Assembly (NCBI GenBank): GCA_024696155.1 | Contig: JAILHD010000122.1 | Location: forward strand, 1 to 32,127 | DNA length: 32,127 bases | Direction: 5' to 3' | DNA from: Treponema sp. | Lineage (GTDB): Bacteria > Spirochaetota > Spirochaetia > Treponematales > Treponemataceae | Shown here: positions 6,254-28,058 of the stretch, one piece after another | Numbering within the stretch: the first letter of the stretch is position 1 | How the letters are laid out: each line of letters opens with the position of its first letter | The notes under the pieces: model-generated | Seen by the model: the letters and a program-made list of their open reading frames with translations, nothing else | What the model was told of the DNA's origin: nothing | The model's database searches: none | Translations under genes and position numbers: made by a program

Positions 6254-6256
6254 AAA

Positions 6257-6375
6257 AAGAGGTTCGGATTTCAAAACCGCACGCTAGCGTGCTACACGCT
6301 GTTGTGACTTGTAATTATATACTTTGACCGCTTTCGCGGTCACACAACAGAGTGTTTTTGAAATCCGAACCTCTT
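6257..6375. terminator. Large nested inverted repeat between convergent genes; terminator for metK
   Basis: The outer arms 6257-6276 and 6356-6375 are a perfect 20-base inverted repeat. Inside lie a perfect 14-base palindrome at 6279-6292, a second stem (6294-6306 with 6343-6355, one mismatch) and a third hairpin GACCGC-TTTC-GCGGTC (6326-6341). Read on the minus strand, the outer stem is followed by seven T residues (6258-6252), as in an intrinsic terminator for metK. On the plus strand the T tract is poor. The structure is far larger than a simple terminator needs. Confidence 0.75.
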
Positions 6376-6395
6376 ATTCGTAAATTTCTAACTAA

Positions 6396-26437: not shown

Positions 26438-26450
26438 GTAGAATGTGCCT

Positions 26451-28058
26451 ATGACTATCGGCTCATACACACCAGAAGAACCAATTTCCTCAATCGCAAC
26501 TGCCCTGGCTCCCGCAGCCCTGGGCATAATCCGCGTAAGTGGCAAAAACTGCATTCAGCTTGTAAGTAAAGTTTTTTCACGCCCAAAGGCACTTTTAGAC
26601 GCCCCAGGAAATACGCTTGTGTACGGGTGGATATTTGATAACTGTAACGAATATAAAATGTCAGCTCCGCGCAGCGGAGGTGATAAAGCGGGTTCAGATA
26701 AGTTGACAATTGAAGACACCATTACGACCCGCGAAGGGGAAAGCACCCCCCTGGCTCCAGCCGGCGAGCCGTCTTACACCACCCTCCCTGCGGGGACACC
26801 CCGCAACGCCCCAAAACGCATCGACGAAGTAATGCTTGCCGTTTACCGTACACCAAAATCCTTTACCGGAGAAGACATGGTAGAAATCTTCTGCCACGGA
26901 GGACCAGCCGTTGTTACAGCAATTCAGACTCTCATGCTAAAAAGCGGCTTCCGCCAGGCACTGCGCGGTGAATACACCTTCCGCGCCTACATCAACGGAA
27001 AAACCGACCTTACCAAGGCAGAAGCCGTAAAAGAAATTATAGACAGCCACACAGACGCTGGCCGCAGTCACGCCGTTGGCCGGCTTTCAGGCTCACTTTT
27101 TGAAGAAATCGACAGCATCAAAAAATTGATAATAGATACCCTTGCTTCTATAGAAGTAGAAATCGAATACCCGGAAGATGAGGAAACAATTGCAGATACC
27201 TTTGACCGCAAGGACATCGAGCTTGCCCGCGACCGCCTTCAGACTCTTGCAGACAGCTGGAAGGGCGAAAAGCTTTATCAGGACGGAGCACGCGTTGTTC
27301 TTGCCGGCCGCACAAATGCCGGTAAATCTTCGCTTTTTAATGCCATTTTAAAGGAAGAGCGGGCAATTGTAAGTGACATTGAAGGAACAACCCGCGACTG
27401 GCTTGAAAGCTGGGCAAGCATCAACGGAATTCCAGTCCGTTTATTCGACACAGCAGGTCTCCGCGAAACTGACGACGTAATCGAAGCTCAGGGTGTAGAA
27501 CTCAGCCGAAACCTTGCCAGCGACGCCGACGTAGTTTTGTATTTAATTGACAGCACGACTAAACCGACCCCGGAAGACCAGGAATTCATTAAAAACTGTA
27601 AGGAACCATTGATTGTGGTTTGGACGAAGTCTGATAAGAACCAGGTCGGGGGCGTTGCGGGGGTATCCCCCGCAGAGAGGGTAGCGGAAAACGACGCGAC
27701 AGCGGCGGTTGAAGCTAGGGAGAGCCTTCTCCCTCCTTCGGTACTTCAAATCCAGATTTCCTCAAAAACCGGCACCGGCATACCACTGCTTTTTGCCCAG
27801 ATTGCAAAAATCCTGACTTCGGGACTAACAACCGACCGCGAACAGGCAGGACTTGGTTCGGCACGCCAGCGTGACTCTGTTGCAGAAGCCCTGGAAAATG
27901 TAAAGCACGCACTCATTAGTGCAGACGATAACTATACTCTGGATGCTGTTGTTCAAGATCTGGAAGAAGCTCTGGACTGCCTTGGCGAAGTAACCGGCGA
28001 CGTAACTCCGGACGACGTTTTGGGCAGTATTTTTGCTAATTTCTGCGTTGGAAAGTAG
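26451..28058 (+). CDS. mnmE: tRNA modification GTPase MnmE carrying two in-frame repeat insertions
   Basis: With MnmG, MnmE modifies the wobble uridine of certain tRNAs. The 535-residue product is about 80 longer than usual. Family parts are intact: N-terminal folate-binding start (IATALAPAALGIIRVSG), SFTGEDMVEIFCHGG, P-loop GRTNAGKSS (286-294), GTTRDWLE, DTAGLRE, TKSD (G4), SSKTGTG (G5) and the terminal FCVGK with its essential Cys. The extra length lies in two blocks: about 66-121 (Pro/Gly/Thr-rich) in the N-terminal domain and about 399-432 (Ala/Glu-rich) between G4 and G5. Both are encoded by GC-rich palindromic elements. ATG 26451 is preferred to GTG 26445, though neither has a good ribosome site. 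Catalytic motifs suggest the enzyme still works. Confidence 0.95.
   Translation: MTIGSYTPEEPISSIATALAPAALGIIRVSGKNCIQLVSKVFSRPKALLDAPGNTLVYGWIFDNCNEYKMSAPRSGGDKAGSDKLTIEDTITTREGESTPLAPAGEPSYTTLPAGTPRNAPKRIDEVMLAVYRTPKSFTGEDMVEIFCHGGPAVVTAIQTLMLKSGFRQALRGEYTFRAYINGKTDLTKAEAVKEIIDSHTDAGRSHAVGRLSGSLFEEIDSIKKLIIDTLASIEVEIEYPEDEETIADTFDRKDIELARDRLQTLADSWKGEKLYQDGARVVLAGRTNAGKSSLFNAILKEERAIVSDIEGTTRDWLESWASINGIPVRLFDTAGLRETDDVIEAQGVELSRNLASDADVVLYLIDSTTKPTPEDQEFIKNCKEPLIVVWTKSDKNQVGGVAGVSPAERVAENDATAAVEARESLLPPSVLQIQISSKTGTGIPLLFAQIAKILTSGLTTDREQAGLGSARQRDSVAEALENVKHALISADDNYTLDAVVQDLEEALDCLGEVTGDVTPDDVLGSIFANFCVGK
26661..26683. repeat. Short GC-rich palindrome at the start of the first mnmE insertion
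   Basis: CTCCGC (26665-26670), loop GCA, GCGGAG (26674-26679), extended on both sides by TCA/TGA with one mismatch. It lies inside the first extra block of mnmE and encodes SAPRSGGD. It may be a remnant of a second type of element or the outer end of a compound insertion. Confidence 0.5.
26728..26814 (-). repeat. Palindromic repeat copy 1, inside mnmE (reverse orientation)
   Basis: Read on the minus strand it begins GGGGCGTTGCGGGGTGTCCC and contains a perfect TGCGGGG/CCCCGCA hairpin (26789-26795 with 26799-26805), then GGAGGGT, a GC-rich middle, GGAGCC and a G-run/TTTCCCC hairpin ending CTTCGCGGG. It aligns along its length with copy 2 at 27648-27740. It is in frame and without stops in mnmE, coding a Thr/Pro-rich block (TTREGESTPLAPAGEPS...). 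Confidence 0.85.
27648..27740 (+). repeat. Palindromic repeat copy 2, inside mnmE (direct orientation)
   Basis: Begins GGGGGCGTTGCGGGGGTATC; hairpin TGCGGGGG/CCCCCGCA (27656-27663 with 27667-27674), GAGAGGGT, a GC-rich middle, GAAGCTAGGGAGA and a second hairpin AGGGAGA/TCTCCCT (27717-27734), ending CCTTCGG. It shares the order and most bases of copy 1, in the opposite orientation. It is read in frame as GGVAGVSPAERVAENDATAA and lies between GTPase motifs G4 and G5. Confidence 0.85.

Follow-up and report, generated by a model that had tools for sequence, protein, structure and literature searches.

Two oppositely oriented, in-frame copies of a dispersed palindromic repeat in the mnmE gene of a Treponema species

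The window analyzed here is a stretch of 32,127 nucleotides from Treponema sp. (genome G000), in which mnmE contains two copies of a GC-rich, hairpin-forming element. GC content is 65% in the element copies, against 42% in their surroundings. The start codon of mnmE is more likely the ATG at 26451 than the first codon of the open frame. The features of the locus are as follows:

26445..28058, forward strand: mnmE (tRNA modification GTPase), 537 codons, with Pfam domains TrmE_N, MnmE_helical, and MMR_HSR1 and an NCBIfam match to TIGR00450 (1.4e-103)
26653..26728, forward strand: extra in-frame sequence of loop A outside the element, with the palindrome CTCCGC (26665-26670) / GCGGAG (26674-26679)
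26729..26815, reverse strand: element copy A, reversed relative to mnmE; codons about 95-124, in a loop of the N-terminal TrmE domain
26735..26752, reverse strand: hairpin 3 of copy A, AGGGGGGTGCTTTCCCCT (sequence and model alignment)
26789..26806, reverse strand: hairpin 1 of copy A, TTGCGGGG-TG-TCCCCGCA (pattern match)
27646..27740, forward strand: element copy B (codons about 401-432), in the GTPase domain after its G4 (TKSD) and before its G5 (SSK) motif
27655..27674, forward strand: hairpin 1 of copy B, TTGCGGGG-GTAT-CCCCCGCA (pattern match)
27717..27734, forward strand: hairpin 3 of copy B, AGGGAGAGCCTTCTCCCT (sequence and model alignment)

Copy B has the sequence GGGGGCGTTGCGGGGGTATCCCCCGCAGAGAGGGTAGCGGAAAAC...GTTGAAGCTAGGGAGAGCCTTCTCCCTCC, and copy A is the same element in the opposite reading direction. 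An earlier note on this DNA had proposed exactly this arrangement of two in-frame copies, neither containing a stop codon, and our analysis confirms it: both copies lie in frame and stop-free within mnmE. The same note took the repeat copies to be the whole cause of the oversize protein, which is true in part. Compared with the 459-residue MnmE of the relative G024, in which neither block is present, MnmE of the window has 78 additional residues; the elements contribute about 29 and 32 residues, and about 27 residues of loop A derive from the other sequence (26653-26728). Among the loci that we retrieved, this other sequence occurs only in mnmE of G000 and G004, and the pairing of its small palindrome is preserved in G004 through two-sided changes (CTTCGC/GCGAAG). 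It also resembles segments in PolA and MiaB of G004 and in MiaB of G024 (L255, L284, and L285), an apparent further family of in-frame repeats with a small hairpin and a peptide of the type VAxxVTxTDxxGxxTT, which is found beside the element or in its place.

On solved MnmE, block A would map to the position between residues 86 and 88 of structure 1xzp, and block B would separate the G4 motif from the G5 motif; both are variable loops relative to solved MnmE. An AlphaFold model of moderate quality (mean pLDDT of 67, 28 sequences), used only for loop placement, has pLDDT values below 50 in two stretches: residues 69-120, flanked by strands 57-65 and 124-134, and residues 401-422, flanked by strands 389-394 and 434-437. 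The predicted structure, a check proposed in the note, is thus compatible with both inserts lying in disordered surface loops.

The element is about 80 to 100 bp long (about 85 to 95 bp in mnmE) and consists of three short, separate hairpins. Its order is a G-run, GCG, hairpin 1 (TTGCGGGG-loop-CCCCGCA), the linker GARRGGGTAGC, a middle hairpin, hairpin 3 (AGGGGGAGaCTTCCCCCT), and CCT. At least three subtypes of hairpin 1 exist (GCGTTGCGGGG..CCCCGCA, GCGTTGCGGGCGGCG..GAGCCCGCA, and GGTTTTAGGGGG..CCCCCTAGGCGA). What had been described as a GC-rich middle is better described as a middle hairpin, of which sequence and length vary among copies while pairing is kept; nor is the CTTCG end typical of the element, as other copies end in CCCTCCT plus variable sequence. 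The TGCGGGG-loop-CCCCGCA hairpin itself is well founded: the pattern TTGCGGGG-N2..12-CCCCGCA has 10 matches in the 2.40-Mb genome of the window, and its reversed control has none. With copy B alone as query, BLAST found 17 further matching stretches in the same genome (best E value, 4e-13). Because of these pattern matches against a zero control and these BLAST matches, the repeat in mnmE is not a chance occurrence. A covariance model built from 16 copies detects about 29 copies in the genome (E below 3e-4); since both mnmE copies went into the model, its E values for copies A and B are circular.

When 94 copies, drawn from several genomes, are aligned, 91.1% of cells in the three helices are paired compared with 78.9% after shuffling, double changes in the helices number 172 compared with 43, and structures slid by 1 to 3 columns score far worse. 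The 94-copy alignment was fitted to the model and is therefore biased toward the model structure; an alignment of 16 copies made with MAFFT only gives the same pairing picture. A search of Rfam with mnmE and six copy-bearing loci returned no relevant family. Within some element copies of the genome (L005 [C53:1003], L008 [C106], L022, and L024), other palindromes are nested, e.g., AAAAAAAGTCCAGTGGACTCTTTTTT.

From the open frames and Pfam domains around each copy, at least 9 of the 29 copies lie within eight identified genes, all nine in frame. Two of these copies are in loops A and B of MnmE. One separates the two exonuclease domains of PolA, one is in MiaB, one is close to the C terminus of MurI, and two directly precede the C-terminal domain of ABC-F ATPases; the others are in a radical-SAM/SPASM protein and in a DUF554 protein. 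The genome-wide count proposed in the note, with copies on both strands and their frames mapped, thus leaves about 20 copies that are mostly intergenic, several of which begin or end a few bases from a stop codon. The intragenic share is far below the coding fraction (binomial p of about 1e-11 to 1e-14 for 85 to 90% coding); therefore, genes are avoided or insertions in them are lost.

The note had further suggested that an element open on both strands may be adapted to life within genes. The placement of about 20 of the 29 copies outside genes does not support this, and neither do the stop-free frames, which number 3.37 of 6 per copy compared with 3.01 after composition-preserving shuffling; the openness of both strands is therefore largely a matter of the GC-rich composition. 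One observation does favor adaptation. All forward intragenic copies are in frame in the reading (ER/EG)VA (4 of 4 in the genome of the window and 8 of 8 with relatives, counted by eye), and all reverse copies are in frame in the reading (S)ATPSAG..RNAP (5 of 5 and 9 of 9, likewise by eye). Weighted by openness, the probability of such use of one frame per strand is about 0.005 for the genome and 6e-6 for all 17 cases, under an assumption of independence that the cases do not fully satisfy. In other lineages, copies located within long frames are mostly read in these two frames as well. However, the peptides encoded in these frames are small, polar, and rich in Ala, Ser, Pro, and Glu, and for this reason selection on the host protein suffices to explain the pattern equally well.

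According to the note, a mobile repeat would be contradicted if the blocks were conserved protein sequence in MnmE of distant treponemes or if the repeat had no other copies. MnmE is present in all 59 related genomes, its inserted blocks are not conserved as protein sequence, and, as described above, many other copies exist. Copy A is missing from G024 and most of the genus. G024 lacks both blocks, whereas in its sister G004 both sites are filled; the mnmE core is 94% identical between G004 and G024, and that of G000 is about 88% identical to both. Site A of G004 holds the orthologous insert, and site B holds a different subtype (GVLGAEPLGEGVASNEVRAWGRLSPSS). Other subtypes or orientations of the element occupy site B in G003, G010, and G014, and in G002 an element starts at site B and continues into a run of N. 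The lengths of loops A and B vary across treponemes. In G008, G015, G019, and G034 (L100, L091, L098, and L096), the two MnmE loops carry other in-frame palindromes, such as GTCCCTGAGCCTGTCGAAGGG (VPEPVEG/LRQAQEP), CGTCATTGCGA..GAAGCAATC, GTCATGCTGAACTTGGTTCAGCATCT, and GTCATCCTCGGACTTGATCCGGGGATC. Because other species have other subtypes and orientations or unrelated palindromes at these positions, the two loops are common landing places. PolA and MiaB show similar behavior. MiaB has a short loop in most genomes, but a reverse copy is present in that of G000 and an independent, forward copy in that of G002; PolA contains the element in G000, G024, and G019.

Empty and filled sites were also compared by synteny over 200 kb of G004 and G024. 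One clean empty site, the only one read at base level, was found: the copy at G004 C4:143680, placed at a stop codon, is missing in G024, and the 2- to 3-base TA(A) duplication seen there is indistinguishable from the stop-codon context. One G004 copy has a G024 counterpart interrupted by another palindrome, and another copy has shrunk in G024 to its first bases. In one orthologous pair the 3' two thirds are identical while the hairpin 1 subtype and the left flank differ, a pattern expected from recombination within the element. At another orthologous intergenic site, the subtype differs between G000 and G004/G024. At one intergenic site, G024 has the element and G004 an unrelated repeat of about 165 bp. 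A second interspersed repeat of about 150 to 170 bp with an internal palindrome exists (L036, 2603-2783; L039, 2666-2831; L040, 2246-2396; G004 C4, 169003-169173), and at one site it occupies the position held by the element in G024.

Within the genus, 32 of 36 genomes have matches, with up to 55 copies, whereas G007, G017, G027, and G033 are free of copies; distant genera have few or none. A 31-base core pattern is found in at least 120 contig stretches of the GTDB representative set, across phyla. Its matches include the Treponema isolates T. bryantii, T. ruminis, JC4, and C6A8 and, beyond Treponema, Fibrobacter, Prevotellaceae, Chitinispirillia, Nitrospirae, Oscillospiraceae, sphingomonads, Caulobacter, and Geomonas. 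The element is also present in alphaproteobacteria and in an acidobacterium, isolates and plasmids included. A termite-gut Prevotellaceae metagenome-assembled genome (MAG) and two termite Spirochaetaceae have from at least 145 to at least 150 model matches, and two more genomes have 133 and 131; for Prevotellaceae Ct408_bin72 the count is at least 150. A Nitrospirae MAG has 73 model matches, T. bryantii B25 has 67, the complete genome of T. ruminis has 56, and F. succinogenes has 31, but Geomonas, Qipengyuania, Caulobacter, and a Sphingomonas MAG have a single match each. In Magnetospira, Tardibacter, Sphingomonas, Sphingobium, and T. saccharophilum, plasmids carry near full-length matches, and a Granulicella plasmid has a partial one. 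Single MAG contigs with the element may be misbinned; contamination as the source of the cross-phylum pattern is argued against by the isolate and plasmid records that carry the element. Judging from its neighbor's sequence, the Geomonas copy looks to be near a conjugation-type coupling gene. No match was found among INPHARED phages, and only 3 matching stretches were found among 2.9 million contigs of IMG/VR; hence, phages are not an evident vehicle. Intragenic insertions occur in Fibrobacter as well, e.g., in glutamate synthase, carA, and an RlmL-like gene. Five Fibrobacter MAGs (L131, L156, L199, L225, and L230) share an in-frame copy within one RlmL-like methyltransferase gene, an insertion that is apparently old and common to the five genomes.

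Many copies, orthologous presence and absence, both orientations, in-frame genic copies, co-variation of the hairpins, and occurrence in several phyla were all observed directly. We therefore regard it as very probable that the blocks of MnmE are copies of a non-autonomous, dispersed, hairpin-forming, selfish insertion repeat. This estimate leaves the route of movement aside, for which we would give any single proposal a limited chance at best.

Four other explanations were considered. (i) The element could be of the REP type and be moved by a RAYT, a Y1 transposase related to IS200/IS605, with GTAG and an imperfect hairpin (the linker and hairpin 2) as the REP core. GGGTAG is indeed located 5' of the middle hairpin in nearly all copies, target-site duplication is not above chance, as for HUH enzymes, and two termite-gut Spirochaetaceae with at least 145 copies contain many Y1-related genes, some of these genes within about 200 bp of an element. 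However, Y1_Tnp matches are absent from G000, from the copy-rich G004, G015, G019, G020, and G024, and from Prevotellaceae Ct408_bin72, T. bryantii B25, and F. succinogenes; no element lies beside 12 Y1 loci of the order, and one strong match lies near 12 others. With the enzyme missing in many copy-rich genomes and the elements not beside most Y1 genes, a resident RAYT mobilizer is disfavored, and we consider this explanation unlikely. Termite-gut Spirochaetaceae MAGs (L166, L212, L218, L236, and L237) contain a multicopy gene family that is weakly related to Y1_Tnp (E value, 0.006) and in which no HUH motif is evident; at three loci, the gene start and an oppositely oriented element are no more than about 200 bp apart. 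The Y1-related genes of the two termite spirochetes are only a lead.

(ii) Slightly less probable still is a functional structured RNA or DNA site (for mRNA stability, transcription end, or protein binding) that is under selection, with the genic copies as by-products. Strong hairpin co-variation, the many intergenic copies that abut stop codons, and the near-identical form across phyla would suit such a site, and the strong conservation of pairing could also reflect a selected function in intergenic copies. It fits poorly with the two orientations within genes, the orthologous sites that are empty or hold unrelated repeats in sister species, the same-genus genomes without a match, and the absence of an Rfam match. 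(iii) The ribosome could skip the elements, or they could be excised from the mRNA, in the manner of the GC-rich byp elements of yeast mitochondria. GC-rich hairpins within conserved genes recall the latter, but all genic cases here are in frame, stop-free, and in one frame per strand, a constraint that bypass would lift, which makes this explanation very improbable. (iv) Native, lineage-specific expansions of MnmE loops, GC-rich by coincidence, would agree with the differing lengths of loops A and B across treponemes but are refuted by the presence of the same nucleotide sequence at dozens of unrelated sites, both intergenic and in other phyla.

For the selfish insertion repeat, the following course may be envisaged. 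Copies would reach genomes as DNA, via plasmids or uptake, and would insert at new sites by a function provided in trans or by host recombination on the single strands of hairpins; resident copies would then swap subtypes through recombination. Genic insertions would persist only if the frame is kept, no stop is introduced, and the site is a disordered surface loop, and because of this, a few tolerant loops (two in MnmE and one each in PolA and MiaB) would acquire repeats many times over. Most likely, the inserts of MnmE are translated and tolerated, without a function. Neither the RAYT search of copy-rich genomes nor the gene families beside copies revealed a mobilizing gene; the families recurring beside copies elsewhere are mainly ABC transporters, the shared Fibrobacter locus, and the Y1-related gene. 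Direct repeats at the element ends are no better than in shuffled pairings, giving no target-site duplication above chance. For 27 of 86 copies, the nearest copy belongs to their own genome (16 expected), and because copies cluster only weakly by genome, nothing points to a recent burst within a genome. Tentatively, one palindromic family may circulate between phyla and enter core genes in frame without a dedicated transposase, by plasmids or uptake and host recombination at hairpins, and, together with unrelated palindromes, refill the same few loops.

To our knowledge, palindromic repeats that lie in frame within housekeeping genes have mainly been regarded as peculiar to Rickettsia. The parallel to Rickettsia palindromic elements (RPEs) drawn in the note is borne out: ours, too, is a small, dispersed palindromic element, found in both orientations, between genes and in frame within unrelated conserved genes. 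RPEs were described as intragenic inserts in 19 reading frames, and one host enzyme (Gmk) was shown to be active (reviewed in PMC2229807); RPE families of R. conorii are also described (PMC10969869). RPEs are about 105 to 146 bp long, form long stem-loops with terminal inverted repeats, and are reported from Rickettsia, whereas copies of the Treponema element are about 82 to 112 bp long, have three short hairpins, and are common to several phyla. Within the scope of NCBIfam (four insert peptides) and Rfam (mnmE and the six copy-bearing loci), no family match was found. By hairpin layout and host range as described, the element appears to work like RPEs and to be a different, far wider-spread family. 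It shares with REPs and REPINs a short GC-rich imperfect hairpin after GTAG and many, mostly intergenic copies, and differs from them as a three-hairpin unit that is often within genes. Bacterial MITEs (ERIC, Correia/NEMIS, and RUP), some with open frames fused to genes (PMC2229807), are likewise small, non-autonomous repeats; in contrast, the Treponema element has no clear terminal inverted repeat (its ends are GGGGCG and CCCTCC) and no target-site duplication above chance, and no autonomous relative came to notice. A palindromic amphipathic repeat coding sequence with horizontal spread among microbes (PMC2996958) is described as an intragenic tandem repeat, whereas the Treponema element has one insertion per site, in housekeeping genes and intergenic regions.

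The open-licence literature contains no earlier description of the element that we could find, although one may exist elsewhere, and no paper in it contains the repeat sequences or the VPEPVEG peptide; a 2024 MITE review mentions neither Treponema nor Fibrobacter. Described here is an in-frame repeat of gut (rumen) spirochetes with near-identical copies in several other phyla. In close species, orthologous sites may be filled, empty, or filled in another way, which makes its movement and a possible usefulness to proteins testable. For annotators and structure modelers, the finding is a warning that loops of MnmE, PolA, MiaB, and ABC-F proteins can derive from repeats. Elsewhere in the window, a large imperfect inverted repeat (6254-6378; 38-bp arms, 79% complementary, AAAAAGAGGTTCGGATTTC / GAAATCCGAACCTCTTATT) lies between adjacent genes and is probably a terminator or another repeat.
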